DNA from: a virus
Strand: one strand, 5' to 3'
Length of the DNA: 25,035 bases
Virus record (IMG/VR): IMGVR_UViG_3300034198_006942
Coordinates: 1 to 25,035 of that record
Shown here one piece after another: positions 632 to 14,622 of this stretch. Under the pieces are notes generated by a model, which was not told the origin of the DNA, made no database searches, and saw only the letters and a list, made by a program, of their open reading frames with translations. Position 1 is the stretch's first letter. Each line of letters opens with the position of its first letter. Made by a program: the position numbers and the translations under genes.

Positions 632-669
632 TTGGCATTGTGCCTAATAAGCCCTACATTGAAGACATG
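632..669 (+). promoter_or_regulatory. Leaderless promoter repeat A, copy 1
   Basis: -35 TTGGCA (632-637), 17-bp spacer ending CCTAATAAGCCC, -10 TACATT (655-660), six bases GAAGAC, then ATG at 667. An A-tract about 20 bases upstream of the -35 could act as an UP element. Confidence 0.85.
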
Positions 670-762
670 AGCGAATACGAAATTCCAGAAATGCCCGACC
701 ACTGCCATTGCAGTAGCAACGGAGAGTGCAGTGTTTGTCTCTCCCTATTGGGGGAGTCATGA
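667..762 (+). CDS. Small Cys-rich protein, 31 aa
   Basis: This short gene is supported by its start codon lying exactly six bases after the -10 of promoter repeat copy 1, and by the ATGA overlap with the next gene. It encodes HCHC near residue 13 and two further cysteines (CSVC) near residue 22, so it may bind one metal ion. It is too short for a family assignment. It could partly serve as a leader that delivers ribosomes to the following gene, whose GGGGGAG ribosome site lies inside this reading frame. Confidence 0.6.
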   Translation: MSEYEIPEMPDHCHCSSNGECSVCLSLLGES

Positions 763-1151
763 GCGAAACGCTTATCACTGGCGAGATAACCAACGAATGC
801 ACTTGTGTGCAGGAAGATGGAGAGCCACAGACCTATTGCTATGGAGACTGTTGGGAGATGTCGGTAGACGACTTCACCAATGTCACCGATGAACTTCGCA
901 AGTCTAACGAAACGGACTACTGGAAGGTAGAGAATATCCGCTTGTGGAACGGCAGTGTTTCAGGACACTTTCACGCTGAAAAAGTTGAGGACATTATCCG
1001 AGGCATGGCAGTGAACGGAACTTGGAATATGCGCTACAAAGTATTTAGTGACCGCATTGAGTACAGCCTTGCCCACCACGATGCCCCAATGGGAAGCACG
1101 AGCGTGTTACGCCCGATGACGGAAGAAGAGTACGAGGAAGTGAGATGGTGA
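759..1151 (+). CDS. Conserved-type actinophage hypothetical, 130 aa
   Basis: The frame is open from an earlier ATG at 726, but I chose 759. It has a GGGGGAG Shine-Dalgarno seven bases upstream and overlaps the previous stop as ATGA. The N-terminus is Cys-rich (ECTC near residue 12, CYGDC around 27-31), followed by an acidic DDF segment. The C-terminal half has conserved-looking SLAHHDAP and GSTSV stretches. It resembles a hypothetical protein common in actinobacteriophages (from memory, not checked). Function unknown. The next gene starts inside its stop codon. Confidence 0.8.
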   Translation: MSETLITGEITNECTCVQEDGEPQTYCYGDCWEMSVDDFTNVTDELRKSNETDYWKVENIRLWNGSVSGHFHAEKVEDIIRGMAVNGTWNMRYKVFSDRIEYSLAHHDAPMGSTSVLRPMTEEEYEEVRW

Positions 1152-1297
1152 AGCCTGAACAGCCCCGTGAAGAAGATGGGCAACTCCACGAGAGCAAGTG
1201 TCCCTGCAACGAGTGTGAAACTTGGGCGTGGGCGTTGCTTGATTGGGAAGACCAAGAGAGAAAAGAAGGAAGAGACCCTCATGACGATAATCGTTGA
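1148..1297 (+). CDS. Small acidic protein with CPCNEC motif, 49 aa
   Basis: GTG start overlapping the previous stop as GTGA, an arrangement used repeatedly in this window. The product has CPCNEC at residues 18-23 and a Trp-rich segment after it, then a charged tail (QERKEGRDPHDDNR). The Cys cluster suggests metal binding, but no family is recognised. It overlaps the start of the next gene by 17 bases, which supports a coupled operon. The same DNA in another frame can be read as an N-terminal extension of the next gene, but the ribosome site and family length argue against that. Confidence 0.6.
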   Translation: MKPEQPREEDGQLHESKCPCNECETWAWALLDWEDQERKEGRDPHDDNR

Positions 1298-1493
1298 ACT
1301 CATACACACAGATGACCCACACACAAAACTGAAGCGTGGAGACCGGGGCTTGCTGCTGCGCAAGCGCAAAGACCCTTGGGGTGAGGTTGTAGACGTAGCG
1401 TGGGACAACGGCTCAACCTTGTCGCTTGTCGCCGGCGAGGACTCATGGACTGAACGAGCCCCGCACCCCGACGACGACTTCATGTACGACTGA
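1281..1493 (+). CDS. DUF4314 family protein, 70 aa
   Basis: The sequence matches the DUF4314 pattern I know from phages and Gram-positive bacteria: VELIHTDDPHTKLKRGDRG, then a short beta hairpin, then VAWDNGSTLSLVAGED. The fold is a small beta barrel and the role is unknown. The frame is open from 1167, but the ATG at 1281 has an AAGGAAGAG ribosome site and gives the usual family length with the domain at the N-terminus. It is the last gene of the operon starting at promoter copy 1. A TCGCCGGC octamer lies inside it at 1429-1436. Confidence 0.8.
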   Translation: MTIIVELIHTDDPHTKLKRGDRGLLLRKRKDPWGEVVDVAWDNGSTLSLVAGEDSWTERAPHPDDDFMYD

Positions 1494-1512
1494 AAATAAT
1501 TTGTGACCGAGG

Positions 1513-1550
1513 TTGTTGTTATCCCTAATAAGCCCTACATTGAGGGTATG
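1513..1550 (+). promoter_or_regulatory. Leaderless promoter repeat A, copy 2
   Basis: -35 TTGTTG (1513-1518), 17-bp spacer, -10 TACATT (1536-1541), six bases, ATG at 1548. It starts 19 bases after the previous stop codon. Confidence 0.85.
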
Positions 1551-1778
1551 AAGGTAAAGCACCCACACATCAACGTCCCATTGGTCGGAGAAGACGGAAA
1601 CGCATTCTCCATTCTTGGAAGAGTCTCGCGCATTATGAAGCGCAACGGTCTCCGAGACGAGTGGGACGAGTTCCACAAGGAAGCCACATCAGGCGACTAC
1701 GACAACTTGCTCCGCACGGTCATGTCGTGGTTTGCGGTGGACGAAGATTACGAAGAGAAAGGTTGTGATTGCCCCTAA
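1548..1778 (+). CDS. Conserved phage hypothetical, 76 aa
   Basis: The start is set by promoter copy 2. An upstream in-frame ATG at 1503 would only add a peptide encoded by the promoter repeat itself. The core (GEDGNAFSILGRVSRIMKR, then EFHKEATSGDYDNLLRTVM) is a pattern I associate with a small helical hypothetical protein widespread in phages and plasmids. It ends in an acidic tail with CDCP. No enzymatic motif is visible. The 3' end overlaps the -35 and spacer of promoter copy 3, so the end of this gene and the next promoter share DNA. Confidence 0.8.
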   Translation: MKVKHPHINVPLVGEDGNAFSILGRVSRIMKRNGLRDEWDEFHKEATSGDYDNLLRTVMSWFAVDEDYEEKGCDCP

Positions 1779-1800
1779 TAAGGCATACACTGAAGTCATG
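1763..1800 (+). promoter_or_regulatory. Leaderless promoter repeat A, copy 3
   Basis: -35 TTGTGA (1763-1768), 17-bp spacer, -10 TACACT (1786-1791), six bases, ATG at 1798. It lies across the stop codon of the previous gene (TAA 1776-1778). Confidence 0.85.
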
Positions 1801-2145
1801 AACAAAGCACTTGTTATCCCAGCAGAAGGTTCACCCTTCACTACTATCGTTGCCCAACCTGAAGGCGACTTCATCAACAAGACAGTCGGCGGTTGGTTTG
1901 ACTGTGTTCGCTCCAAGTCATTTCATGGCTACGTGAACGACACAGGTCTCATTGACGGACTCCCATTCAACCCGATTGCGAGCATTGTGTTCGGTCAGGT
2001 TATTTGCGGTGACGCAATTCTGTTCGGCTCATTCAGCGCAAGCGGTGAGTATGACGGTTACGAGCACAGCATTGACCCGATGGTGGTTACGGCAGTGAAC
2101 CAGCAGTACATGTTGTATCGCACTAACTCGGAAGCGAAGGTGTGA
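1798..2145 (+). CDS. DUF3846-like protein, 115 aa
   Basis: The protein resembles DUF3846: an N-terminal VIPAEG strand, a central VGGWFDCV (the family has a VGG[W/Y]-type core), then YVNDTGLIDGLPFNPIAS, which matches the family's 'N-E-x-G-L-x-x-L-P-x-N' region, followed by VICGDAILFG. The family is common in phages and mobile elements and has no established role. The start is set by promoter copy 3. The open frame from 1732 would translate the promoter repeat and overlap the previous gene. It is the first gene of a three-gene group with the next two Cys-rich proteins. Confidence 0.75.
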   Translation: MNKALVIPAEGSPFTTIVAQPEGDFINKTVGGWFDCVRSKSFHGYVNDTGLIDGLPFNPIASIVFGQVICGDAILFGSFSASGEYDGYEHSIDPMVVTAVNQQYMLYRTNSEAKV

Positions 2146-2147
2146 CC

Positions 2148-2282
2148 ATGTGGTTTCTGTTTGGTATCCTCATCGGGTACTACATCGCCAGCCATGACTG
2201 GAGCGACTTGTGGGAAGAAGAAATTGACTGCACACACGCTTGGAGTAACGACCACTGTTATGTGTGTGGGCTTGACCGTTGA
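2148..2282 (+). CDS. Small membrane-anchored zinc-knuckle-type protein, 44 aa
   Basis: Starts two bases after the previous stop with a modest AAGG ribosome site. The N-terminus (WFLFGILIGYYIA) is a likely single membrane segment. The C-terminus has C-x-H, then C-x-x-C-G-L, consistent with a small zinc site (residues about 28-41). Stop and next start overlap as TTGA. Function unknown. Confidence 0.6.
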   Translation: MWFLFGILIGYYIASHDWSDLWEEEIDCTHAWSNDHCYVCGLDR

Positions 2283-2485
2283 GTCTCTCGCCGGCCCCGC
2301 TTTGCGAGTATTGCCGAGGTGACGAAGAGTCGCCAGCGATGAAGGTAGTCGCTTACGAGTACGTTGAGACTGGGCTCAGGTACTCGGGGCTTGCCTGCAA
2401 GGTGTGTGCTGACTACATTGAGTCCGAGTATTGCGATGGAACAATTATTGCTTGGCAGGTTGTTGTTGAGGATAATAAGCCGTAA
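2279..2485 (+). CDS. Cys-rich hypothetical protein, 68 aa
   Basis: TTG start overlapping the previous TGA. Contains CEYC at residues 9-12 and CKVC around 41-44, a two-knuckle arrangement typical of small zinc-binding proteins, then ESEYCDGTIIAWQV. The last codons (DNKP then TAA) are encoded by promoter repeat copy 4, and the stop codon forms the first bases of its -10 element. A TCGCCGGC octamer lies at codons 3-6. Function unknown. Confidence 0.65.
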   Translation: MSLSPAPLCEYCRGDEESPAMKVVAYEYVETGLRYSGLACKVCADYIESEYCDGTIIAWQVVVEDNKP

Positions 2486-2496
2486 GATGGTGTCAT
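2460..2496 (+). promoter_or_regulatory. Promoter repeat A, copy 4 (no ATG at +1)
   Basis: -35 TTGTTG (2460-2465), 17-bp spacer with GATAATAAGCCG, -10 TAAGAT (2483-2488), six bases GGTGTC, then ATAAGG where other copies have ATG. The transcript would begin near 2495 and carry a 17-base leader with a GAGGAG ribosome site before the ATG at 2512. Confidence 0.75.
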
Positions 2497-2511
2497 AAGG
2501 AAAGAGGAGAT

Positions 2512-2622
2512 ATGGCTGAACTAATACTAATCGCTAGACTTGCCTTGTCTGTTGGACTTGGTTACATAGTATGGTTTTTAACTGGTATCTGGTATGACGC
2601 AGTGTTTAAGGACAGGGACTAA
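2512..2622 (+). CDS. Small membrane protein, 36 aa
   Basis: ATG preceded by AAGAGGAGAT, one of the strongest Shine-Dalgarno sequences in the window. This fits its promoter copy lacking a leaderless ATG. The peptide has a single membrane segment (LILIARLALSVGLGYIVWFL, residues 4-23) and a short charged tail ending KDRD. Such small proteins in phages may act in lysis or superinfection control, but nothing in the sequence assigns a role. Confidence 0.65.
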   Translation: MAELILIARLALSVGLGYIVWFLTGIWYDAVFKDRD

Positions 2623-2623
2623 A

Positions 2624-2640
2624 TCCTTTCCGCCACCGTG
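2624..2640 (+). repeat. Intergenic repeat B, copy 2
   Basis: TCCTTTCCGCCACCGTG, two bases after the stop of the previous gene. After it, 2641-2823 has no credible gene. It carries a tRNA-like folded segment (2661-2746) and then leads to promoter copy 5. Confidence 0.75.
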
Positions 2641-2660
2641 CTCACATGAGAAACACAATC

Positions 2661-2746
2661 GGGTGATGGGACATTAGCCCCGAGTTATGCGCTGATAGAA
2701 GGTTCATAACAAAGGGCACAGGGGTGGTTCAACTCCACCCCCACCC
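2661..2746 (+). ncRNA. Candidate tRNA-like structured RNA segment
   Basis: A hairpin with a 5-6 bp GGTGG/CCACC stem and the seven-base loop TTCAACT (2728-2734) has the exact T-arm loop consensus of tRNA and tmRNA (T-T-C-R-A-N-Y, closed by G-C). GGGTG (2661-2665) can pair with CACCC (2742-2746) as a closing helix. Between them is a long hairpin: GCCC with GGGC, then GTTATG with CATAAC (2684-2689 and 2705-2710) around a 15-base loop. No normal D-arm or anticodon arm can be drawn, and there is no CCA after a discriminator. It is therefore not an ordinary tRNA; it may be a tRNA mimic or a decayed tRNA. Confidence 0.35.
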
Positions 2747-2823
2747 ACTAAGAGCGCGGGGCTTGTCTTCCTTCCCTTTCTGCAAGCCTCGCTCTCTACT
2801 TCTAAATAAATCTGCACGGCAGG

Positions 2824-2861
2824 TTGTTGTTGTGCGTAATAAGCCATACATTGAAGTTATG
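2824..2861 (+). promoter_or_regulatory. Leaderless promoter repeat A, copy 5
   Basis: -35 TTGTTG (2824-2829), 17-bp spacer, -10 TACATT (2847-2852), six bases GAAGTT, ATG at 2859. Intergenic, with an AT-rich stretch (about 2800-2812) upstream. Confidence 0.85.
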
Positions 2862-3131
2862 AGAAACCCAATTATCACCACACCTACTGGCGAAGTCATG
2901 TTGTTCAACGACGGAAACCTTATGAGCCTAGACACGAACAGCGAGATAATCACCGAATGGTGGTACAGCCCTGAATGGCAGGCACTCAAACTTTCCTATG
3001 GCGACAAAGCCTATTACTATCGGGGAGTGCCTTACAGCGTTATCCACGAGATGTTGTGCGTAGACAGCCTCGGTAAGTTCGCCAACTTGGTTATCAAGCC
3101 CAACTACGAAGTACAAGAGGCGGTCAAGTGA
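2859..3131 (+). CDS. KTSC-domain protein, 90 aa
   Basis: The C-terminal two thirds match the KTSC domain: a beta-strand region ALKLSYGDKAYYYRGVPYSVIHEML followed by DSLGKFANLVIKPNY (about residues 45-83). Three of the family's four naming residues can be aligned by eye. The family is small and often linked to RNA or nucleotide metabolism contexts, but its activity is not established. The start is fixed by promoter copy 5. The longer frame from 2724 runs through the promoter repeat and the tRNA-like segment and is rejected. The next short gene starts in its stop codon (GTGA). Confidence 0.75.
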   Translation: MRNPIITTPTGEVMLFNDGNLMSLDTNSEIITEWWYSPEWQALKLSYGDKAYYYRGVPYSVIHEMLCVDSLGKFANLVIKPNYEVQEAVK

Positions 3132-3202
3132 GCGAGCCAACGCCCCTCACAGACCTCATCAAGAGGTGGGTAGACAGGAACAAGCCGACATGGGTTGGGT
3201 AA
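3128..3202 (+). CDS. Possible 24-aa peptide
   Basis: GTG start overlapping the previous TGA, the same GTGA junction seen at five other places in the window. The peptide is mixed-charge (LIKRWVDRNKPTWVG) and too short to classify. It overlaps the start of the next gene by 13 bases, so it may simply bridge translation from the KTSC gene to the next gene. Confidence 0.4.
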   Translation: MSEPTPLTDLIKRWVDRNKPTWVG

Positions 3203-3369
3203 CTAACTATGTGGCTTACCGAATTGGTAGGCGTGTGAGTCAGCCCCGCCCTCAACCTCAACAATGTATTCCACAGTTCCTGCATAACGAAGAACCCGAG
3301 TGCATTCACTTTGCATCATTTTGTCGCAGTTACGGAAGTTGTGACGGACAGGTTTGTGAGTACGAATGA
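3190..3369 (+). CDS. Cys-rich hypothetical protein, 59 aa
   Basis: I chose the ATG at 3190 over the GTG at 3166 because an AGGAAC stretch lies upstream and the ATG is the first strong start. The C-terminal half carries five cysteines and a histidine (around residues 26-57), suggesting metal binding. The middle is basic and Gln/Pro-rich. The stop overlaps the next start as ATGA. Its DNA contains a D-loop-like string (ACCGAATTGGTAGGC) but no tRNA fold. Function unknown. Confidence 0.55.
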   Translation: MGWVTNYVAYRIGRRVSQPRPQPQQCIPQFLHNEEPECIHFASFCRSYGSCDGQVCEYE

Positions 3370-3746
3370 AAGTTATTGAACGACTGTCGTTCGGGTGGGA
3401 GACACAAGTATCCCAATACCCGACACACGGGAGCCCCGGGATTTCATACTTCCGAGGAGACTTGGGTGACAAGTGGGTGGACTGCCTACTCCACAGAGAC
3501 GACAACGGGGAACTGGCAGGGATACTGAACTACTACTCCGTAGACCTTCCACCTGAAAACGCTGGCAACTTCACTCTCATGGTTCGCCCTGACGCACAAA
3601 GAACTGGCGTGGCGACGGGGCTGCTGCGTGAAGCGTTCGCCCGATGGGACATTGACCCTCGTGAACAGACTTACACACAAGAAGGCGTGGAGTTTATGAA
3701 AAAGTTTCTGCGCACGAATGTTGTGTTTGTACCTAATAAGCCTTAG
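3366..3746 (+). CDS. GNAT-like N-acetyltransferase, 126 aa
   Basis: The pattern FTLMVRPDAQRTGVATGLLREAF (about residues 73-95) matches the acetyl-CoA-binding motif A of GCN5-related acetyltransferases (V-x-P-x-x-[Q/R]-x-x-G-x-[G/A]). The protein is shorter than usual and ends soon after a helix, YTQEGVEFMKKF, which matches the domain's last helix. Substrate is unknown; phage GNATs may modify host proteins or antibiotics. The last codons (PNKP) are encoded by promoter copy 6, and the TAG stop is the start of its -10 element. ATGA overlap with the upstream gene. Confidence 0.7.
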   Translation: MKVIERLSFGWETQVSQYPTHGSPGISYFRGDLGDKWVDCLLHRDDNGELAGILNYYSVDLPPENAGNFTLMVRPDAQRTGVATGLLREAFARWDIDPREQTYTQEGVEFMKKFLRTNVVFVPNKP

Positions 3747-3758
3747 ATTGAAGTCATG
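3721..3758 (+). promoter_or_regulatory. Leaderless promoter repeat A, copy 6
   Basis: -35 TTGTGT (3721-3726), 17-bp spacer with CCTAATAAGCC, -10 TAGATT (3744-3749), six bases GAAGTC, ATG at 3756. Fully embedded in the end of the acetyltransferase gene. Confidence 0.85.
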
Positions 3759-4073
3759 AGTAACTACACAGACCACTACACCTACTACAACAACCTCACC
3801 GATGCTGAACTTCTTAGCATTATTGACGAGAACTACTACGGCATCGGCGCAACAGGCGTAGATGCGTTAGAAAACTTGCTAGCCGACATTGGTGAAGGCG
3901 TGTGGGAGCGTCACGGTGTTCCCGTGTCTCGCATGAACCGAATCACGGTGATGCTTGTAAAGTCGTTCAACGACCGTCAGGTATGGAATGTGGTGGCAGG
4001 ACTCGTGACTGACGCACAGCGCAAGCAGATGACAAGCCGACCACGCCGAAGTATCCTAATGAGGAAGCGATGA
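3756..4073 (+). CDS. Hypothetical protein, 105 aa
   Basis: Start fixed by promoter copy 6. The N-terminus is rich in Tyr and Asn (TDHYTYYNNLTDAELLSIID), followed by a predicted helical body and a strongly basic C-terminus (SRPRRSILMRKR), which could contact nucleic acid. No recognised domain. ATGA overlap with the following 28-aa frame. Confidence 0.7.
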   Translation: MSNYTDHYTYYNNLTDAELLSIIDENYYGIGATGVDALENLLADIGEGVWERHGVPVSRMNRITVMLVKSFNDRQVWNVVAGLVTDAQRKQMTSRPRRSILMRKR

Positions 4074-4156
4074 AAGAGGTTTGTCCTCACGCTCACCCGT
4101 GGCGGTACGCTCTTGCGTGTCGTATGGAACTAATCCGAAAGAGGTTCAATAAGTGA
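4070..4156 (+). CDS. Small basic peptide, 28 aa
   Basis: Overlaps the previous gene as ATGA and the next as GTGA, so it fits exactly between two coupled genes. It contains CPHAHPW and a second Cys at residue 17, then a basic helix (MELIRKRFNK). Too short to classify. The double overlap is the main evidence for translation. Confidence 0.5.
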   Translation: MKEVCPHAHPWRYALACRMELIRKRFNK

Positions 4157-4548
4157 ACTGCACGAACTGTGGGCTAGAAGCCCCGACATCACAACAGCCC
4201 GACAAGTACCTTGATGCTGGTTGGTCATTCAACTGGCTTGCGCTCGGACATTACGGTGGTTTTACAGACTGCCTTCCAGAGCGAGACAAGAACCCAAACG
4301 ACCCCGAGTACATCGCCCACCTATGTCATGACTGTTGCGTGACTTTGTTGCTTGCGATGCCGGGACTCGCCGGCGTTGTCTTCCCTGAAGGTGGTGGTGG
4401 ACACCCCAACCAAAACGAACATGACACCGAAGATGGAACATTGACTTCACCTTGTTGTCAATGGGCTTGGACATGGAAGAAAAGCCCCGCTGGTTATGAC
4501 ACATACTTCGGCACGGCTGAAGGTGGCTGGAAGAAAATGGATGACTGA
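4153..4548 (+). CDS. Cys-rich hypothetical protein, 131 aa
   Basis: GTG start overlapping the previous TGA. N-terminal CTNCG (residues 3-7), central CHDCC (about 58-62) and C-terminal PCCQWAW give three cysteine clusters, consistent with one or more zinc sites. The middle has a Gly-rich segment (VFPEGGGGHPNQNEHD), and Trp is frequent at the end. No family recognised. Last gene of the operon from promoter copy 6; its stop is immediately followed by promoter copy 7. A TCGCCGGC octamer lies at 4367-4374. Confidence 0.7.
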   Translation: MNCTNCGLEAPTSQQPDKYLDAGWSFNWLALGHYGGFTDCLPERDKNPNDPEYIAHLCHDCCVTLLLAMPGLAGVVFPEGGGGHPNQNEHDTEDGTLTSPCCQWAWTWKKSPAGYDTYFGTAEGGWKKMDD

Positions 4549-4550
4549 GG

Positions 4551-4588
4551 TTGTGGTTACCGCTAATAAGCCATACATTGAAGTTATG
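4551..4588 (+). promoter_or_regulatory. Leaderless promoter repeat A, copy 7
   Basis: -35 TTGTGG (4551-4556), 17-bp spacer, -10 TACATT (4574-4579), six bases GAAGTT, ATG at 4586. It begins two bases after the stop codon of the previous gene. Confidence 0.85.
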
Positions 4589-4819
4589 AAGACAGCAGTT
4601 AGTTCAGTAAATCGCCCAATACGTTTTGTTGGAAGCAAAGAAGAAGCGGAAGCGAACTTCAAGTCGCACGACTTCCGTGTCTTTGACGGTGAAGCATTGT
4701 GCCTCGGCTGCGACTGCAAGCCTCATCACGCTCACGCATCGTACCCTTGTGGAGTTGAAGCCCCTCGTGAAACAGAAACTGTGTGGAACGATGGAACAGT
4801 TACAACGGTTCCTGAATGA
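4586..4819 (+). CDS. Hypothetical protein with CLGCDC cluster, 77 aa
   Basis: Start fixed by promoter copy 7. The frame from 4496 only adds the end of the previous gene region and the promoter repeat. Contains CLGCDCKPHHAH (around residues 39-50) and another Cys at 55, a likely metal site, after a segment FVGSKEEAEANFKSHDFRVF that could form a helix-strand unit. Acidic C-terminus. ATGA overlap with the next gene. Confidence 0.7.
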   Translation: MKTAVSSVNRPIRFVGSKEEAEANFKSHDFRVFDGEALCLGCDCKPHHAHASYPCGVEAPRETETVWNDGTVTTVPE

Positions 4820-5016
4820 ACAAGATGCCACCGCTTTACAAGTGTGAAGTATGCGGTGTTGGTCTTGACCCAAAGGGCGGGACTGTGCTCAAACTCGTGA
4901 CGGGTTGGGTGAAGGGAACTGGACGCAACATCATTTACTTGGAAGAGAACCATTACAGGTTTATCCATGAAGTGTGTCGTTCCAAAGAGTCTTCCGCCAC
5001 CGATACACTTTTCTAA
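4816..5016 (+). CDS. Zinc-finger-like protein, 66 aa
   Basis: ATGA overlap with the previous gene. CEVCG at residues 10-14 and H-x-x-C (HEVC) at about 51-54 form a plausible zinc site around a beta-rich core (GGTVLKLVTGWVKGTG). Small CxxC proteins with a KLVxGW stretch are familiar from actinophages, without a named family. The end of the gene contains a degenerate copy of repeat B. Confidence 0.7.
   Translation: MNKMPPLYKCEVCGVGLDPKGGTVLKLVTGWVKGTGRNIIYLEENHYRFIHEVCRSKESSATDTLF
4991..5004 (+). repeat. Intergenic repeat B, copy 3 (degenerate, inside gene end)
   Basis: CTTCCGCCACCGAT, one base shorter in the CTTT run than the other copies, followed by ACACTTTT as in copy 4. It lies in the last codons of the zinc-finger-like gene. 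The 70-base gap to promoter copy 8 has T- and A-tracts (5066-5079) but no gene. Confidence 0.6.
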
Positions 5017-5086
5017 CACTTTAGTAAAACAAACGGGGCTGACAAAGCGCTGCGAGAAAGTTGCTAAAAACATTTTTTGTGTGAGG

Positions 5087-5124
5087 TTGTTGCTGTCCCT
5101 AATAAGCCCTACGATAAAGTTATG
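5087..5124 (+). promoter_or_regulatory. Leaderless promoter repeat A, copy 8
   Basis: -35 TTGTTG (5087-5092), 17-bp spacer with CCCTAATAAGCCC, -10 TACGAT (5110-5115), six bases AAAGTT, ATG at 5122. T-rich UP-like stretch just upstream. Confidence 0.8.
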
Positions 5125-5454
5125 AATATCCGCTCATTCCCTTCCCGCCATACACGCCTGCGCTTTGCGCTCGCTTCTGTCCTCGTTCGGTTCGCCGTTC
5201 GTGTATGCCCTCTAAACTTTGCTGACCGCTTTGCTGAAGAAACAGAAGAGGCTTGTCAAGAACTCGTAGAGAGTGACCCGTTCTACATGGAACTCGGCAA
5301 GGCTTGGGACATAGTCGGTTGGACTTACGAAGGTGAGGCTTACTGCCCTGACCACCGTCCTGAAGTGTGTTGCTCTCCTGACGCCCCGCAACCCGTCTTT
5401 GCTTCTGACGAACAGGACTTTGCTTGCAGAACTTGTGAGAAGGCGTTAGACTAA
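5122..5454 (+). CDS. Hypothetical protein with C-terminal zinc-binding-type motif, 110 aa
   Basis: Start fixed by promoter copy 8. The N-terminus is basic (SRHTRLRFALASVLVRFAVR) and amphipathic. The C-terminus has WTYEGEAYCPDH, then a second cluster ACRTC (around 102-106), separated by PVFASDEQDF. This arrangement recalls a small zinc-ribbon hypothetical seen in actinophages. The basic N-terminal helix is unlike its neighbours. Function unknown. Confidence 0.7.
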   Translation: MNIRSFPSRHTRLRFALASVLVRFAVRVCPLNFADRFAEETEEACQELVESDPFYMELGKAWDIVGWTYEGEAYCPDHRPEVCCSPDAPQPVFASDEQDFACRTCEKALD

Positions 5455-5458
5455 CCGC

Positions 5459-5680
5459 ATGGACGAACCTAATTTTGACGCAGTGTTTGAGACGCTCGCT
5501 CGCATGGAACAAACTCTTGCTCGTGTAGAGAAGTTAGTTACTGATTTCAGCAAGATAGGACCGATGGCCCCGCTGCCGGTAGAAAACTGGAACGGCGAAG
5601 AATCTTCAATTGGAGGGCGAATGAAGTCGCTCAAAGATTACAACTTCGTAGTTGCGCCAAATCCATCTAAGAAAGACTAA
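5459..5680 (+). CDS. Coiled-coil hypothetical protein, 73 aa
   Basis: Starts five bases after the previous stop without a clear ribosome site, so translation probably depends on the upstream gene. Residues 8-31 (VFETLARMEQTLARVEKLVTDF) form a short heptad pattern typical of a coiled coil, followed by a Pro-rich linker and a basic tail. It may oligomerise. No family recognised. Followed by a terminator. Confidence 0.65.
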   Translation: MDEPNFDAVFETLARMEQTLARVEKLVTDFSKIGPMAPLPVENWNGEESSIGGRMKSLKDYNFVVAPNPSKKD

Positions 5681-6254: not shown

Positions 6255-6276
6255 GCAAACATTTTTTACTCACAGG

Positions 6277-6305
6277 TTGCAAGTCTCCCCAATAAGCCGT
6301 AACAT
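6277..6305 (+). promoter_or_regulatory. Promoter repeat A, copy 9 (before an RNA gene)
   Basis: -35 TTGCAA (6277-6282), 17-bp spacer with CCCCAATAAGCCG, -10 TAACAT (6300-6305). A second TAGTAT (6305-6310) overlaps. No ATG stands at the expected +1; instead a hairpin-rich segment begins at about 6312. Confidence 0.7.
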
Positions 6306-6311
6306 AGTATG

Positions 6312-6478
6312 TAGATGAGATAAAACCTCATCGGTGGGTAAACCTACAAAGCCCCACACTGTTGAAGCCGAAAGGTGGAGGTGTGAAGGACGGTGTAGCC
6401 CACACAACCAATTTCTGCTAACGGAGAAATGGAAATAGCCCACTAGCCCTCGGACACGACAGGCAAGTGGGTTTTTTT
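6312..6478 (+). ncRNA. Candidate structured small RNA, about 165 nt
   Basis: The segment has its own promoter and ends in a strong terminator, with no open frame of note. Hairpin 1: GATGAG (6314-6319) with CTCATC (6327-6332) and a 7-base loop. A middle region has competing GTGGG/CCCAC and CACAC/GTGTG pairings, and CC-GAAA-GG (6368-6375) looks like a GNRA-capped element. Hairpin 3: CC(A)ATTTCT with AGAAATGG (6408-6432). Terminator: CCCACT (6439-6444) with AGTGGG (6466-6471), an inner GCC/GGC and TCG-GACA-CGA, then seven T. It matches no RNA family that I recognise. It could be a regulatory RNA, an RNA-polymerase-binding RNA or a host-targeting antisense RNA. Confidence 0.65.
6439..6478 (+). 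terminator. Intrinsic terminator of the small RNA
   Basis: Stem CCCACT/AGTGGG continued by GCC/GGC and TCG/CGA around a GACA loop, followed directly by seven T (6472-6478). Confidence 0.85.
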
Positions 6479-6523
6479 CTGTCTATGAGCACGTGCGCCA
6501 GTAGTCCCGCGTATTATTGTTAC

Positions 6524-6625
6524 ATGTCAGAAAACCCACCCCCACCTCCTCCTGAGAAAAAGAAAAAGCCAAGACCGCAGTTTATTAAACCTGTCAAACC
6601 ACGCAGGTGCGGAACCTGTCATTAG
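6524..6625 (+). CDS. Pro/Lys-rich small protein, 33 aa
   Basis: A -10-like TATTAT (6512-6517) lies exactly six bases before the ATG, suggesting a leaderless transcript. The peptide has a run of six Pro after MSEN, then EKKKKPRPQ, and ends in RRCGTCH. The C-x-x-C-H end could bind metal but is isolated. The composition suggests a flexible basic peptide that may touch nucleic acid. Evidence for translation is only the start arrangement and its position between an RNA gene and promoter copy 10. Confidence 0.5.
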   Translation: MSENPPPPPPEKKKKPRPQFIKPVKPRRCGTCH

Positions 6626-6626
6626 G

Positions 6627-6664
6627 TTGTTAAAACTTTAGTTAAGCCCTATGATGTACACATG
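6627..6664 (+). promoter_or_regulatory. Leaderless promoter repeat A, copy 10
   Basis: -35 TTGTTA (6627-6632), 17-bp spacer with a diverged TTAGTTAAGCCC core, -10 TATGAT (6650-6655), six bases GTACAC, ATG at 6662. Confidence 0.75.
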
Positions 6665-6928: not shown

Positions 6929-6939
6929 TCTTCACCATG

Positions 6940-6977
6940 TTGTGATTGTCGGTAATAAGCCATAGTATGTATTTATG
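6940..6977 (+). promoter_or_regulatory. Leaderless promoter repeat A, copy 11
   Basis: -35 TTGTGA (6940-6945), 17-bp spacer with GGTAATAAGCCA, -10 TAGTAT (6963-6968), six bases GTATTT, ATG at 6975. Confidence 0.85.
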
Positions 6978-7142
6978 GAAGTACAAGAGACACGTAAACC
7001 AAAAGCATGGCGTAATGGCAGATACATTTACTGCATGACCCACGGTCAGACGCAGTGCTACGACATTGAACTCGTCTACGGAGATAACCCTTTGCTAGAG
7101 GGTGGACGTAAGTGCGATTGGTGTAAGGCGAAACTGAAGTGA
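6975..7142 (+). CDS. Small zinc-ribbon-type protein, 55 aa
   Basis: Start fixed by promoter copy 11. Residues 19-28 hold two cysteines (YCMTHGQTQC) and residues 47-50 hold CDWC, an arrangement typical of a small zinc ribbon. Basic at both ends. The following gene begins with GTG inside its TGA. No specific family recognised. Confidence 0.65.
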   Translation: MEVQETRKPKAWRNGRYIYCMTHGQTQCYDIELVYGDNPLLEGGRKCDWCKAKLK

Positions 7143-7399
7143 CCACAGAGTTTGAAGCCTTTGAGAACCTAGTCAAGTCCCTGCATGACCATCCCACCAA
7201 CAGGGATAAGAGACATGGTCAGATGTACTTCAAGGTTCTTAGTGAGATACGCCCCGCTATTGCAGAAGTAATCACGGGAACCATGTTTGACCCGTTCTAC
7301 AAAGACGAGATACATCCAAGTACGTCAGAGATTGTACAGCGCTACTGGCACTTCCCTCAAGATGAAGTGCTTGGCGACTTTGTAGGGAAAAGTGAATAA
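7139..7399 (+). CDS. Hypothetical protein, 86 aa
   Basis: GTG start overlapping the previous stop (GTGA). Acidic, mostly helical sequence (FEAFENLVKSLHDHP, FKVLSEIRPAIAEVITG, PSTSEIVQRYWHF) without cysteines, unlike its neighbours. No motif recognised. It is the last gene before the origin-like intergenic region. Confidence 0.7.
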   Translation: MTTEFEAFENLVKSLHDHPTNRDKRHGQMYFKVLSEIRPAIAEVITGTMFDPFYKDEIHPSTSEIVQRYWHFPQDEVLGDFVGKSE

Positions 7400-7583: not shown

Positions 7584-7585
7584 AG

Positions 7586-7608: not shown

Positions 7609-7616
7609 TCGGCAGG

Positions 7617-7654
7617 TTGTCTCTGTCCCTAATAAGCCATACAGTGATGTCATG
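7617..7654 (+). promoter_or_regulatory. Leaderless promoter repeat A, copy 12
   Basis: -35 TTGTCT (7617-7622), 17-bp spacer with CCCTAATAAGCCA, -10 TACAGT (7640-7645), six bases GATGTC, ATG at 7652. Confidence 0.85.
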
Positions 7655-8237: not shown

Positions 8238-8257
8238 GGCGTGTGACGAGAGCCACG

Positions 8258-8295
8258 TTGTGATTACCCCTAATAAGCCATACATTGGAGTCATG
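8258..8295 (+). promoter_or_regulatory. Leaderless promoter repeat A, copy 13
   Basis: -35 TTGTGA (8258-8263), 17-bp spacer with CCCTAATAAGCCA, -10 TACATT (8281-8286), six bases GGAGTC, ATG at 8293. Confidence 0.85.
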
Positions 8296-10413: not shown

Positions 10414-10420
10414 TAACAGG

Positions 10421-10458
10421 TTGTGTATGGGTCTAATAAGGCATACATTGAAGACATG
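10421..10458 (+). promoter_or_regulatory. Leaderless promoter repeat A, copy 14
   Basis: -35 TTGTGT (10421-10426), 17-bp spacer with TCTAATAAGGCA, -10 TACATT (10444-10449), six bases GAAGAC, ATG at 10456. Confidence 0.85.
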
Positions 10459-10635
10459 AAAGAAGAAGTAAAAGACTCACTCATAGGCATAGGGTACGGT
10501 CTAGCAATAGCCCTACTCGCAGTCTTTGGGGTAATCAGCGGTAAGACCGCAATAATCATTGGATTAGGAACGGTTGCATTTAGTTTCGTTCTCATCTTTG
10601 TCTCAATCGTCACAGAAGTAATGAAGGAAAAGTAA
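10456..10635 (+). CDS. Small two-segment membrane protein, 59 aa
   Basis: Start fixed by promoter copy 14; an upstream in-frame start at 10423 lies in the promoter repeat. Two hydrophobic segments (IGIGYGLAIALLAVFGVISG, about 10-29, and AIIIGLGTVAFSFVLIFVSIV, about 32-52) with charged ends (MKEEVKD, EVMKEK) form a hairpin membrane topology. A holin-like size and shape are possible, but there is no adjacent lysin. TAATG overlap with the next gene. Confidence 0.7.
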   Translation: MKEEVKDSLIGIGYGLAIALLAVFGVISGKTAIIIGLGTVAFSFVLIFVSIVTEVMKEK

Positions 10636-10736
10636 TGGACTTAGCAGTCAATCTCCACCCAGTAGTAGTCGTGTTCTTTGTAACAGCACTCATCGGACTC
10701 CGTATCCTGAAGTTGGAACGATTCAATAAGAAATAA
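10635..10736 (+). CDS. Small single-pass membrane protein, 33 aa
   Basis: ATG overlaps the previous stop as TAATG. One hydrophobic segment (HPVVVVFFVTALIGLRIL, residues 8-25) and a basic tail (KLERFNKK). Probably acts with the preceding membrane protein. No family recognised. Confidence 0.6.
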   Translation: MDLAVNLHPVVVVFFVTALIGLRILKLERFNKK

Positions 10737-10749
10737 AGGTTCGCAAAGT

Positions 10750-10766
10750 TCCTTTCCGCCACCGTA
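10750..10766 (+). repeat. Intergenic repeat B, copy 5
   Basis: TCCTTTCCGCCACCGTA, 14 bases after the previous stop. The stretch 10767-10883 has no gene. It shares TCCCTCGGGACT with the copy-1 stretch (565-575) and ends in an A-tract before promoter copy 15. Confidence 0.75.
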
Positions 10767-10883
10767 CTATGTTTCAGTTTTGTATGAAATGCTTTCCCTC
10801 GGGACTGCTGTATGGGCGTGTCTTCCGTGATGACCTGTTTGTTTTCGGTGAAAAATCTTCACAAAAAAACTTTTGGTCTAAGG

Positions 10884-10921
10884 TTGTTATTATTCCTAAT
10901 AAGGCATAGAGTGTACTCATG
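10884..10921 (+). promoter_or_regulatory. Leaderless promoter repeat A, copy 15
   Basis: -35 TTGTTA (10884-10889), 17-bp spacer with CCTAATAAGGCA, -10 TAGAGT (10907-10912), six bases GTACTC, ATG at 10919. A seven-base A-tract (10862-10868) lies upstream. Confidence 0.85.
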
Positions 10922-11092
10922 AAGCAAGACCTACTAAGCACATTCACTCACATCACTCGCATTGACGAAAGGGTAATACTCCGAACGGAGAAGTCCGAAG
11001 ACAACGCAAAAGAGATAGCGTGTATCAACGAAGCGCAAGCCGTAGGAGTTGAGAAGTTACTCAAGAGCCTGTGGGGAGTGCGTCAAGCATAA
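10919..11092 (+). CDS. Small hypothetical protein, 57 aa
   Basis: Start fixed by promoter copy 15, stop followed by an intrinsic terminator, so it forms a one-gene transcription unit. The sequence is predicted helical and mixed-charge (FTHITRIDERVILRTEKSED, then INEAQAVGVEKLLKSLWGV). No motif recognised. Confidence 0.7.
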   Translation: MKQDLLSTFTHITRIDERVILRTEKSEDNAKEIACINEAQAVGVEKLLKSLWGVRQA

Positions 11093-11112
11093 CCTCACAC
11101 ACAAGAAGCCTC

Positions 11113-11150
11113 AGCCCCAGTTCCCCTTCATTTAGGGGCTGGGGCTTTTT
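11113..11150 (+). terminator. Intrinsic terminator
   Basis: AGCCCCAG and CCCC (11113-11126) pair with GGGG and CTGGGGCT (11135-11146), with a two-T bulge, followed by TTTTT. Confidence 0.9.
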
Positions 11151-11168
11151 GCTGTCTTGGCACACCTG

Positions 11169-11198
11169 TTGCAAGTAGCCCCGTGTTTCATGTATGCT
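11169..11198 (+). promoter_or_regulatory. Promoter of the DUF932 gene
   Basis: -35 TTGCAA (11169-11174), 18-bp spacer, extended -10 TGTATGCT (TATGCT 11193-11198). The transcript would carry a leader of about 20 bases with AAGGTG before the ATG, unlike the leaderless family. Confidence 0.6.
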
Positions 11199-11226
11199 CA
11201 GATAAATCTAATGAGAAGGTGCTGGT

Positions 11227-12252
11227 ATGGCTCACGAACTGGAAATGACTGCAAGCGGAGTAGCACGCATGGCGTACGCCGATAGGGAAATCCCTTGGCA
11301 CAGGCTCGGGAAGCCGATGAAGGGCTTACAGACGGCAGAGGCGATGCTCTCGGCTGCTCAGGCTGACTTTGATGTCATTCTCACTAAGGTCGTAGCAGTA
11401 GACGACAACGGCAACATCTTTCGCAATCCAGATGGCAGCCCCGTTTTTGTAGAAGACAGCCGAGCCACGATGCGCATGAACTTGGATGGAAGTTATGACG
11501 GATTGGCGACAGTTGGAACACGATTTGTGGTTCAGCAAAATAAGGAATGTCTTGACAGAGCATTGGCAATCGTCGGGGCTTCTAAAGGCGACGCGTTGGT
11601 AGATACTTGCGGTGTACTTAACGGTGGGCGAGAGTTCTTCGCTTGTCTTGACCTTGGGGAAATCATCATTGACCCGAAGGGTGTTGCCGACAAGATTAAC
11701 CGTTACCTGCTCGTACGCAACGGTCATGACGGGAAGACTGCCATTACATACGCAAACACACCAATCAGAGCCGTATGTAAGAACACTGTTATGGCGGGAC
11801 TCGCCGGCGCACGTTCAGTCTTCACAGCACGCCACACTCGTAATGCCGACCAAGCAATCGAAGATGCGCAACGAGTTCTTGAACTTTCTACAATGTATTC
11901 AACAGAATTTGCACACCTCGCTACTCGTTTACTGGGAATACCCGTAATGGCTGGTTCATCATCACTTGACAAAATCGTTAATGGCGTTTTCCCTCACAAG
12001 CACGGAGAGACAGAGCGTCAGCGCAAGAATGTAGACGACATCCATTTGATGGTGCGTGGTCTGTATGTAAACACCAAAAACGCAGGCGGATATGGGTTTA
12101 ACGGCTGGTCTGCTTACAACGCTGTCGGTGAATACTTGGACCATTACCGGGACGCCAAGGCCGACGAACGTGCGATTGCGTCAATGGATGTGAACTCATG
12201 GGTGTCTCGCAAGAAAGCAACTGCTCAAGAAATTATTCTGTCGCTCGCTTGA
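11227..12252 (+). CDS. DUF932 / phage-plasmid-like protein, 341 aa
   Basis: Matches the DUF932 (TIGR03299-type) protein found in many phages and plasmids. N-terminal MAHELEMTASGVARMAYADREIPWHRLGKPM is the typical opening, with a WHRLG core. The middle (YLLVRNGHDGKTAITYANTPIRAVCKNT, about 165-192) carries the characteristic HDGK and T-P-x-R-x-V-C-x-N. The C-terminal half is helical. The function is not established; links to replication or to gene transfer have been suggested for relatives. The start has an AAGGTG ribosome site. A TCGCCGGC octamer lies at 11801-11808. Confidence 0.85.
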   Translation: MAHELEMTASGVARMAYADREIPWHRLGKPMKGLQTAEAMLSAAQADFDVILTKVVAVDDNGNIFRNPDGSPVFVEDSRATMRMNLDGSYDGLATVGTRFVVQQNKECLDRALAIVGASKGDALVDTCGVLNGGREFFACLDLGEIIIDPKGVADKINRYLLVRNGHDGKTAITYANTPIRAVCKNTVMAGLAGARSVFTARHTRNADQAIEDAQRVLELSTMYSTEFAHLATRLLGIPVMAGSSSLDKIVNGVFPHKHGETERQRKNVDDIHLMVRGLYVNTKNAGGYGFNGWSAYNAVGEYLDHYRDAKADERAIASMDVNSWVSRKKATAQEIILSLA

Positions 12253-12254
12253 CA
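12249..12254 (+). promoter_or_regulatory. Possible -35 (TTGACA) for the downstream gene pair
   Basis: A perfect TTGACA overlaps the DUF932 stop codon, but no good TAnnnT stands 16-19 bp after it (nearest TAGGCA at 12273). TACATT at 12290 is another possible -10. Confidence 0.35.
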
Positions 12255-12305
12255 TAAAGAAGTGGGACAATGTAGGCACAGGGATGCAGTACATTGGGGA
12301 GCAGT

Positions 12306-12707
12306 ATGGATGAAGATTTTGAACCAGAAGAAGAGTTTGAAGTCCCGAACGAGATACTCGCAGAGTTCGTCGGTTCATTCATGTCTATTGCAGGTTCCGC
12401 CGAAATGATGTACAGAAAGCATTATTGTGAACTGATTGCTCAAAAGGTTTACAACCAATTTGGTCTTGATGGTATGTGCGAACTAATGATGGCGATGGAT
12501 AAGCGTGCTGATTGGATTTCGGATATTATTCTGGAAGCCCCGGATTTGGAGAACATTGCGTTCAAGAAATACGGAATCTACGACCCTGACCTTTCAGCGA
12601 AGGCTCGTCAGACGAAGGCTATTGCGGAGATGAACACAAAGTTGTGGAGACTCAGACGCAAGTACGCAAAAATTATTGTTGATGAAATCATGGGAGAAGA
12701 ACAGTGA
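12306..12707 (+). CDS. Hypothetical acidic helical protein, 133 aa
   Basis: Start at the ATG with GGGGAG five bases upstream; an earlier in-frame start at 12294 lacks a site. The N-terminus is strongly acidic (DEDFEPEEEFEVPNE), followed by a helical body with many Met (EMMYRKHYCELIAQ, GMCELMMAMDKR) and a basic helix near the end (MNTKLWRLRRKYAKI). No family recognised. GTGA overlap with the next gene. Confidence 0.75.
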   Translation: MDEDFEPEEEFEVPNEILAEFVGSFMSIAGSAEMMYRKHYCELIAQKVYNQFGLDGMCELMMAMDKRADWISDIILEAPDLENIAFKKYGIYDPDLSAKARQTKAIAEMNTKLWRLRRKYAKIIVDEIMGEEQ

Positions 12708-12946
12708 CCATCACGAGATTCGGAAGCATTAGACCGTTTGACGGAACTGAAGCAGAAAAGATTGCAAACCACAAGACGCACGATATGAATCCAGAAAAGG
12801 TGAACTGGAACGTACCTAAAGCATGGTTGGAGCAGACGGATGTTCCTCTGTCAGAGTTCCAAGACCGGTGTTCAAAGTGCGGGGCGTGGGAAAAAGGCGA
12901 CAAGTACGACTGGCCTTGCGGTAAGCCTGGGACATACGGCGATTAA
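12704..12946 (+). CDS. Hypothetical protein with CxxC, 80 aa
   Basis: GTG start overlapping the previous stop. The C-terminal part holds CSKCG (about 56-60) and a third Cys in WPCGK (about 72), a possible zinc site. The N-terminal part (FGSIRPFDGTEAEKIANH) is unlike any family known to me. It is the last plus-strand gene before the minus-strand lysis cluster. Confidence 0.7.
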   Translation: MTITRFGSIRPFDGTEAEKIANHKTHDMNPEKVNWNVPKAWLEQTDVPLSEFQDRCSKCGAWEKGDKYDWPCGKPGTYGD

Positions 12947-12952
12947 TAAAGG

Positions 12953-12990
12953 TTGCTATTGTGCCTAATAAGCGATAGTATGTGCTTATG
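12953..12990 (+). promoter_or_regulatory. Leaderless promoter repeat A, copy 16, pointing antisense
   Basis: -35 TTGCTA (12953-12958), 17-bp spacer with CCTAATAAGCGA, -10 TAGTAT (12976-12981), six bases GTGCTT, ATG at 12988. Transcription from it would run against the minus-strand zinc-ribbon and muramidase genes. Confidence 0.8.
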
Positions 12991-13162
12991 AATCAAGGGA
13001 GTTGTAGTAATCATCGTGCTTCTTTGCAACGATATTAGTTACTTCTTTACACACAGGACAACGAGGAGTTCTACCCTCCATGAAGTGTGAAGGAATCTCA
13101 CCACACGAACACTTCAGGAATATCTCAACTCCGTACTGACGAATTAGTTCTTTGCGAGACAT
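12986..13162 (-). CDS. Zinc-ribbon protein, 58 aa
   Basis: Read on the minus strand from the ATG at 13162, which overlaps the stop of the muramidase gene as TAATG. The sequence has LKCSCGEIPSHF and then CPVCK (residues 18-21 and 35-38), a clear two-knuckle zinc ribbon, followed by a helix (EVTNIVAKKHDDYYNSLD). It is translationally coupled to the muramidase and lies directly over the start of the antisense transcript of promoter copy 16. Function unknown; possibly a small regulator. Confidence 0.7.
   Translation of the reverse strand: MSRKELIRQYGVEIFLKCSCGEIPSHFMEGRTPRCPVCKEVTNIVAKKHDDYYNSLDS
12988..13038 (+). CDS. Possible 16-aa leaderless peptide (antisense)
   Basis: The ATG sits at the expected +1 of promoter copy 16, but the frame ends after 16 codons and lies opposite the zinc-ribbon gene. 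It may be translated, or the promoter may only serve to make an antisense RNA. Confidence 0.25.
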   Translation: MNQGSCSNHRASLQRY

Positions 13163-14133
13163 TACTTACTACCGCTCGTTGCCTTCCAGTGCCCAATACC
13201 GCCATTATCAAAAAGATACTTGGCTACTTTGAGATTGCATTTTGAGTTGAGAAGAACATTGAGATTTGTTCCTCCGCACACCTGTCTAGTCACCGTTCTC
13301 CATGATGAGTTGATTTGTAGTAATCCATAGTCTCTAGTCCCATTGGAGTTCGGCTTGGAAACAACCTTTTCCTGACAGCGACTTTCTCTCCACATAATGT
13401 ACGAGAACTTCTTTACAGGTACAAGTCCTTGTGCTTTTAATTTGCTTTCCCACTGGGGGCAACTTTTAACTTCCGATGTAAGACTTTGGGAAGAAACTTT
13501 CCCCGATAGTCCCGCTGCCTTCACTGACGAAGTTGGGCGAGTCTTCAGCCATTCAGCCATTCCTGCTTCGGTGTATCTATCTCGTGCAGGTTTGCGAGTT
13601 TTCCAGTTGACGCAATTCTTGCCCCAGTTGCTGATGTTCTTGGCACCAACTGCTGGTCTGAAGAAAGGCTTATTATTTAACTTGTCATCCAGAGTCCCGT
13701 AAACGTTCTTTGTTTGAAACCCAAAGAAGGCAGTGCGGTTAGCGACAATGATTTGTTCATGCTTTGTTGCTTTTGATGGGCGAGAACCAAACTGTTTGCC
13801 TCCGAAGTTAACCCATACTGACTGCGCCATTCCAAGTCCACCAGAAAAGTAGCCACCGTCATTCCATTTATGATTTGTCTCGCACCATGAAACTGCTTCC
13901 CAAAAGGCAATAGAACCGCCCTTTTTTGACTTCAATTGCAAGACTAACTCTGGGTGCATACCACTTGCAGACATAGCCGTAACTTTAAATAAGTCAGGGC
14001 TCAACGACTGCGGAACAGAAGTTGATGGAGATGCAACAGTCGGAGGTGAATCCGTAGCCTCGGCTTTCGTCGTCAGTCCAGTAAAGGAAATAATAGATAG
14101 AGAGATAGCCAAAAGGCGTACGGGGTGTTTCAA
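13162..14133 (-). CDS. Secreted two-domain muramidase (Rpf-like plus lysozyme-like), 323 aa
   Basis: Cell-wall hydrolase probably cleaving peptidoglycan glycan strands. It starts with a signal peptide (KHPVRLLAISLSIISFTGL, cleavage likely after AEA near residue 26) and a Ser/Pro/Thr linker. Domain 1 (about 73-195) is a transglycosylase-like or Rpf-type module: FWEAVSWCE with catalytic Glu 85, then WNDGGYFSGGLGMAQ. Domain 2 (about 225-320) is lysozyme/SLT-like: IMWRESRC with Glu 250, DYGLLQIN (268-275) and several Cys. The frame is open to a TTG at 14178, but I prefer the TTG at 14133: it has AGGAG six bases upstream and places the signal peptide at the N-terminus. Coupled to the zinc-ribbon gene; no holin adjoins. 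Confidence 0.85.
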   Translation of the reverse strand: MKHPVRLLAISLSIISFTGLTTKAEATDSPPTVASPSTSVPQSLSPDLFKVTAMSASGMHPELVLQLKSKKGGSIAFWEAVSWCETNHKWNDGGYFSGGLGMAQSVWVNFGGKQFGSRPSKATKHEQIIVANRTAFFGFQTKNVYGTLDDKLNNKPFFRPAVGAKNISNWGKNCVNWKTRKPARDRYTEAGMAEWLKTRPTSSVKAAGLSGKVSSQSLTSEVKSCPQWESKLKAQGLVPVKKFSYIMWRESRCQEKVVSKPNSNGTRDYGLLQINSSWRTVTRQVCGGTNLNVLLNSKCNLKVAKYLFDNGGIGHWKATSGSK

Positions 14134-14253
14134 GAGTTTCTCCTGTGCTCGGCGGATAGGGCAACAGGCTGTTAACAAGCGCCTGCCTATGTCGTCGTCA
14201 GTGTTAACTGAGTAATACTATTTTATCAGCGGAACAAGCGTTTGGGCAGATTA

Positions 14254-14314
14254 TGAAACCCTTACGCACCAAGGTTTTGCGGGGCTCGCCGGCTGAAACC
14301 CTTGCCAGATAAGG
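14254..14314. repeat. Two 21-bp direct repeats 40 bp apart upstream of the muramidase
   Basis: TGAAACCCTTACGCACCAAGG (14254-14274) and a second unit (14294-14314) share TGAAACCCTT, then a varied seven-base core, then AAGG. In each the outer AAGG/CCTT can pair. The 40-bp spacing equals about four helical turns, and a TCGCCGGC octamer (14286-14293) lies between. They may be operators for the minus-strand muramidase operon. Confidence 0.5.
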
Positions 14315-14320
14315 CTCAAA

Positions 14321-14587
14321 TCAGGGGTTATTTTCCAAAAAAGTTTTGATGTATGTTTCTATGTCCTGAATAGCCATTTTCACCACTATTTCACTATTAG
14401 ACACGACTTCTGTGACCTCAAAGCCGAGGGAGTCAAGCAGGTGTCCAGCAACTTCCTCATAATCCTCAAGCATTATCTGTTCTTCTTCAGCGGGAAGAGT
14501 GTCAAAGTCAACGTCAGCCATCTCTAATAGCATCTTCGCCATGTGCTTTGTAACTTCCACACGCATTTCAAAAGAATTTAAACTCAT
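14321..14587 (-). CDS. Small acidic hypothetical protein, 88 aa
   Basis: The start at 14587 is set by promoter copy 17. The longer frame from 14665 would overlap the SSB start and run through the promoter. The protein is predicted all-helical and acidic (MAKMLLEMADVDFDTLPAEEEQIMLEDYEEVAGHLLDSLGF), with a C-terminal strand-helix part. No motif recognised. Small acidic phage proteins may mimic DNA or inhibit host enzymes, but this is a guess. Confidence 0.7.
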   Translation of the reverse strand: MSLNSFEMRVEVTKHMAKMLLEMADVDFDTLPAEEEQIMLEDYEEVAGHLLDSLGFEVTEVVSNSEIVVKMAIQDIETYIKTFLENNP

Positions 14588-14622
14588 GAGTTGATTGTAT
14601 GCCTTAATGCTGGTAACGTCAA
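14585..14622 (-). promoter_or_regulatory. Leaderless promoter repeat A, copy 17 (minus strand)
   Basis: -35 TTGACG (14617-14622), 17-bp spacer with the diverged core CATTAAGGCA, -10 TACAAT (14594-14599), six bases CAACTC, ATG at 14587-14585. The only minus-strand copy, and the one closest to a consensus sigma-A promoter. Confidence 0.8.

Follow-up and report, generated by a model that had tools for sequence, protein, structure and literature searches.

A family of predicted actinophage promoters with a spacer box that differs between related genomes

Introduction

Repeated short sites near gene starts or promoters are known from several actinobacteriophage groups, four of which are the closest described counterparts of a 17-copy family that we analyzed in a 25,035-base virus fragment (IMG/VR record IMGVR_UViG_3300034198_006942). 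This whole fragment is the window, and coordinates refer to it unless another locus is named. Cluster A mycobacteriophages carry 20-30 asymmetric stoperators per genome, mostly in one orientation and with a genome-specific consensus that is not the same in related phages; these sites, mostly outside promoters, halt elongation through a known repressor (PMC6550527). In Cluster K, 11-19 copies of the SAS/ESAS elements stand beside start codons in the non-structural half. The SAS contains AGGAG and is located 3-7 bp upstream of the start, at the ribosome-site position, while the ESAS are inverted repeats that differ by subcluster, for which the authors propose different protein specificities (PMC3203893). 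In Microbacterium phages of Cluster EC, each genome has 12 copies of an 18-bp asymmetric motif, which occupy short gaps between genes and lie 22-30 bp ahead of start codons (PMC7302621). Finally, Cluster O mycobacteriophages use leaderless SigA promoters with -35/-17/-10 elements and +1 at the start codon, but only a few per genome (PMC4351075).

Like the stoperators, the window family is asymmetric, genome-specific and multi-copy, with one main orientation. Unlike them, every site lies inside a core promoter, with -35 and -10 at a fixed distance. In contrast to the Cluster K elements, the family has a -35/-10 frame and lacks a Shine-Dalgarno site. The Cluster EC motif differs in sequence, and the accessible text reports neither a promoter frame nor lineage-specific rewriting; likewise, no conserved spacer box is reported there for Cluster O. 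A variable box that sits within the core promoter of every copy, always at the same spacing, is not described in these sources for any of the four systems.

Here we propose that the 17 copies are probably promoters of one regulon whose spacer box is read by a phage-encoded, sequence-specific regulator with a repeatedly changed specificity. The family bears on a long-standing question: how the DNA code of a regulator can change although dozens of sites have to change too. If the proposal is true, these phages hold a natural record of a change in transcription-factor specificity across a whole regulon.

Results and discussion

Predicted promoter copies of the window

The earlier note on this DNA, made from the window sequence, had described 17 leaderless promoters. 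All 17 coordinates were correct, and TTG, TAnnnT and a 17-bp distance between the two hexamers are present in every copy, as claimed. ATG follows exactly six bases 3' of TAnnnT in 15 copies, the exceptions being those with -35 starts at 2460 (ATA) and 6277 (TAG). Beyond the hexamers themselves, the -35 region shows a conserved AGGTTGT and the spacer a conserved CCTAATAAGCC. A position matrix built from the 17 copies scored them at 24-62 bits, with the next best site on either strand at -3.0. The pattern TTG-N20-TAnnnT-N6-ATG had 16 matches, 15 of them family copies, compared to a mean of 0.23 and a maximum of 3 in 100 dinucleotide-preserving shuffles. The family is confined to the non-structural half of the fragment, between 0.6 and 14.6 kb, and one copy is on the minus strand. 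The window also carries actinophage features (WhiB, SSB, a SNF2-type helicase, DUF932 and a muralytic transglycosylase).

In 15 of the 17 copies, TAnnnT lies 6-7 nt before a presumed +1 at the ATG, without a Shine-Dalgarno site, as in leaderless genes; an AGGAG core at the ribosome-site position was found in 0 of 16 cases in the window. The -35 keeps only TTG and so falls short of the consensus-like -35 of leaderless primary-sigma promoters. A generic sigma-70 scan recovered just 3 of the 17 copies, with no more sites in total than in shuffled sequence, indicating that the copies are poor consensus promoters. More distant relatives have consensus TTGACA at the -35: in locus L160 and its kin, 4-17 leaderless promoters combine TTGAC with TAnnnT at a 17-bp distance, and none or one has AGGTTG. 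Thus, the copies have the sigma-A geometry noted earlier, but it is doubtful that they are simply sigma-A promoters: the -35 retains TTG alone, whereas more distant relatives carry the full hexamer. Loss of the second half of the -35 in the AGGTTG clade suggests that the promoters of this clade came to need a factor.

Probable promoters rather than coding signals

The segment could be a translational or coding element, such as a conserved upstream peptide or an mRNA start signal, and in the window it does read ..VVxPNKPYIEVM in frame with the ATG. However, across the window and its relatives an in-frame stop lies just 5' of the ATG in 90 of 207 copies, and the segment is therefore not coding. 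Copies also precede leadered genes and apparent non-coding RNAs, and the box varies freely between phages. The earlier note had named codon-level conservation in relatives as a result that would speak against promoters; this check was made and did not refute them, since relatives keep the frame and rewrite the spacer. We consider a coding element very improbable.

A Shine-Dalgarno-like site precedes the ATG in only 5 of the 207 ATG copies (window and relatives). Among 24 high-scoring copies without ATG (window copy 2460 included), 23 are followed by a Shine-Dalgarno-like site and, 16-36 nt downstream, by a frame of 30 codons or more; this fraction illustrates the arrangement and is no unbiased estimate, because the 24 were picked by eye where a gene appeared to follow. 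Copy 6277 is followed by a segment of ~170 nt that is predicted to fold strongly (Table 1), with no match in Rfam. In L120, a promoter copy with the L120 box is immediately followed by a weak homologue of the 5' part of this segment. Such RNA-like segments begin at the same offset from the promoter as the ATGs do. The copies thus appear to be promoters, mostly leaderless, of one co-regulated set, in agreement with the earlier note. Leaderless initiation is not a rule, since the same promoter precedes Shine-Dalgarno-led genes and apparent non-coding RNAs, and the set extends across the non-structural genes rather than phage-wide.

Two further RNA-like segments were seen in relatives, and conserved ones stand behind promoter copies in four relatives. 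One (GTGAGAGGGCAACCTCTTGCGAAATACATAGCA..., >200 nt, no Rfam match) is conserved and begins where transcription from family promoters, here of three box types, is predicted to start. The other ends in a terminator and also follows a family promoter.

Lineage-specific boxes and their concerted change

A protein search with the helicase recovered 65 related loci. The bare frame was found in 18 of 19 related records, and the frame common to related contigs is AGGTTG-17-TAnnnT-6-ATG, with 10-35 copies in well-covered contigs. It occurs in the closest clade (~25 loci at ~76-89% helicase identity) and in the G012/G013 lineage (63%). Records of the AGGTTG clade have 3-35 copies, compared to 0-1 for the reversed pattern and 0-4 in other relatives. 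The nearest isolates are Arthrobacter phages at ~32-34% helicase identity, and a search of genome contigs for a host matched only a distant Clostridia helicase.

Across the AGGTTG clade the -35 and -10 are constant and the box alone varies. Located at about -22 to -13, it has high information content and a sequence of its own in each lineage (CTAATAAGCC, CTAATAAAGG, CTTACTACCG and CTTACAAGGC are among the variants), with at least eight box types in close relatives within one fixed promoter frame. An exact search of IMG/VR with the window's own box gave 103 single background matches, none in a copy family.

We compared boxes over their ten positions, taking reciprocal-best genes as orthologues. 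Copies within a genome differed on average at 2.49 of 10 positions (2,056 pairs) and orthologous promoters of phages with different box types at 6.78 of 10 (177 pairs), about as much as unrelated copies of the same genomes; note that the pairs are not independent, the phages being related and some records near-duplicates. The promoter stays with its orthologous gene, but the box follows the genome, not the gene. Several changes of box type map onto the helicase tree, and L125 differs from the neighbouring TTACTACC phages. The frame, the box, its uniformity within genomes, its concerted change between them and its independence from the start codon are established at the level of sequence.

In each of the lineages checked, the promoters of one orthologous 88-aa gene carry atypical boxes and look as though they escape the regulator (Table 1).

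Proposed mechanism and its alternatives

In the mechanism we favour, the polymerase of the host, carrying the primary sigma factor, would use the weak -35 (AGGTTGTnn) and the TAnnnT -10. The transcription start would lie ~7 nt past the -10, a position that in most copies coincides with the A of the ATG. The regulon would consist of small non-structural phage genes. The spacer box would be the binding site of a sequence-specific regulator, presumably phage-encoded and, by a narrow preference, acting as an activator at the weak -35. Its specificity would have switched several times among related phages, with nearly all boxes of a genome rewritten to match. The fuller picture, a modular system in which the polymerase frame stays constant and a 10-bp box is exchanged jointly at the 10-35 promoters of a genome, in step with a phage regulator that has repeatedly switched its code, seems to us slightly on the likely side of even.

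Apart from the window fragment and the lineage of G012/G013, all AGGTTG contigs spanning the relevant region encode a winged-helix protein of ~102 aa, compared to 0 of 8 relatives without the motif. Its structure model (pLDDT 84) resembles ArsR/MarR proteins, and its gene is usually preceded by a family promoter copy, often with an atypical box. By its fold, it is the best, though still tentative, candidate for the reader of the box. A second, diverged winged-helix gene stands under a family promoter of its own in two loci (Table 1).

Several points weigh against our proposal. The winged-helix protein was not found in the 25-kb window fragment or the 43.5-kb G012 contig, and the correlation of its divergence with box type (rho 0.22) is no higher than for ordinary genes; as a universal reader it was rejected on these grounds. 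Copies with atypical boxes have no stronger -35 or -10 hexamers, so that a prediction of the activator model failed. Finally, lineage-specific boxes would likewise arise if a host factor differed from one host species to the next.

The failed activator prediction fits better with a box that is the operator of a phage repressor, serving in a delay or a superinfection-immunity switch like the Cluster A stoperators. The box lies between -35 and -10, where bound protein would obstruct polymerase, the sites resemble stoperators in their asymmetry, single orientation and genome specificity, and winged-helix proteins are often repressors. However, the lost half of the -35, kept as TTGACA in more distant relatives, suggests dependence on help. 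Moreover, a search of 13 records, several of them fragments, revealed neither a tyrosine nor a serine recombinase; this absence of integrase or resolvase gives no sign of integration and argues mildly against a lysogeny switch. We regard the operator reading as possible but doubtful, and owing to the lost -35 slightly favour activation over repression.

Reading of the box by a host factor, or by a host-specific feature of the polymerase in phages that infect different actinobacteria, would also be compatible with hosts that may differ between lineages, and no phage protein is proven to match box type. Against this stand the change of the box alone while -35 and -10 are constant, the difference between very close phages (L125 versus L111-L118) and the more distant relatives that function without the box. 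A host reader is therefore unlikely in our judgement.

The lineage-specific sequence also recalls the promoter families of T7-like polymerases, and several relatives encode a sigma-4-like helix-turn-helix protein in the structural arm (G006, G012 and homologues; Table 1). The domain ahead of its helix-turn-helix we take to resemble a helicase-associated domain. This protein was rejected as reader: its recognition helix hardly varies between box types, and relatives without AGGTTG have the protein too. A search found no single-subunit RNA polymerase, though the control set was equally silent, and TTG/TAnnnT at 17 bp is the geometry of a primary sigma factor. We thus consider it improbable that the promoters serve a polymerase or an alternative sigma factor encoded by the phage.

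Two further proteins deserve mention with regard to a phage-encoded reader. An 86-aa protein ranked first of 58 families in covariation with box type (rho 0.72), a correlation only, in a continuous ranking; it has no known DNA-binding fold and occurs also in relatives without AGGTTG. The C-terminal tail of the phage WhiB is conserved across most of the clade regardless of box, and as a guess WhiB could help to read the constant AGGTTG part of the -35.

With eight or more box types, orthologous genes and distant relatives without the box, the order of change and the protein responsible become testable. The AGGTTG frame also provides a simple motif for regulon discovery in uncultivated actinophages.

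Table 1. Coordinates of predicted promoters and other features, and box sequences by lineage (window positions unless a locus is named)
Feature	Position	Strand	Remarks
Promoter copy 1	629..660	+	AGG and -35, box CCTAATAAGCC, -10 TACATT; ATG 667, 31-aa gene
Promoter copy 2	1510..1541	+	ATG 1548, 76-aa gene
Promoter copy 3	1760..1791	+	Overlaps end of preceding gene; ATG 1798, DUF3846 gene
Promoter copy 4	2457..2488	+	No ATG at +1; AAAGAGGAG, then ATG 2512, leadered 36-aa gene
Promoter copy 5	2821..2852	+	ATG 2859, KTSC-domain gene
Promoter copy 6	3718..3749	+	ATG 3756, 105-aa gene
Promoter copy 7	4548..4579	+	ATG 4586, 77-aa gene
Promoter copy 8	5084..5115	+	ATG 5122, 110-aa gene
Promoter copy 9	6274..6305	+	No start codon; precedes apparent non-coding RNA 6312..6480
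Predicted structured RNA	6312..6480	+	Fold z -3.9; hairpin and T-run at end
Promoter copy 10	6624..6655	+	Atypical box AGTTAAGCCC; ATG 6662, 88-aa gene
Promoter copy 11	6937..6968	+	ATG 6975, 55-aa gene
Promoter copy 12	7614..7645	+	ATG 7652, 71-aa gene
86-aa protein	7139..7399	+	Divergence tracks box type best of 58 families
Promoter copy 13	8255..8286	+	ATG 8293, 29-aa gene
Promoter copy 14	10418..10449	+	ATG 10456, 59-aa probable membrane protein
Promoter copy 15	10881..10912	+	ATG 10919, 57-aa gene
Promoter copy 16	12950..12981	+	ATG 12988, 16-codon frame only; aims into convergent leftward genes
Promoter copy 17	14594..14625	-	TTGACG/TACAAT, atypical box CATTAAGGCA; ATG 14587, 88-aa gene
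WhiB-family protein	15586..15927	+	C-terminal tail conserved in most of AGGTTG clade
Atypical-box promoters, 88-aa gene orthologues	6624; L122:5808, L123:8382, L124:8045, L126:7618
GTGAGAGGGCAACCTCTTGCGAAATACATAGCA RNA-like segment	L177:15911, L203:8649	-
GTGAGAGGGCAACCTCTTGCGAAATACATAGCA RNA-like segment	L185:3668, L187:6415	+
Second RNA-like segment	L180:8696	-	With terminator
Second RNA-like segment	L187:19097	+	With terminator
Second winged-helix gene	L126:9663-10001, L127:1483-1821		Diverged; own family promoter
Sigma-4-like protein	G006:40612-41034	-
Sigma-4-like protein	G012:3907-4275	+
(C)TTTCCGCCACCG copies	486, 2626, 4990, 7453, 10752	+	Copy near 4990 partly degenerate
Box, window			CTAATAAGCC
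Box, L116			CTAATAAnGG
Box, L120			CAATAACGG
Box, L114			CTAGTAAGCG
Box, L111-L118, L121 and L128			CTTACTACC
Box, L122-L124			CTTACAAGGC
Box, L126			CTTACAAGCC
Box, L125			GTTAGTACGCC
Box, L132			TTATAACCG

Other observations

Copy 16 and its surroundings (12950-13038) possibly give rise to an antisense RNA.

Three other repeated motifs were seen. The five sense-strand copies of (C)TTTCCGCCACCG lie in gaps, about 100-200 bases before promoter copies. The AGGTTG relatives checked have 3-6 copies of the motif per locus on the same strand, and L160, which is without AGGTTG, has three. TCGCCGGC is spread over 576-23276 (14 copies on the plus strand and 1 on the minus strand, about every 1-3 kb, across leftward genes too) and looks like a polar DNA signal; L116 has 6 copies, L160 has 5 and the other relatives checked have almost none. 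AGCCCCG has 28 copies in the window, on both strands, an over-representation of about 12-fold, and is abundant in all relatives checked.

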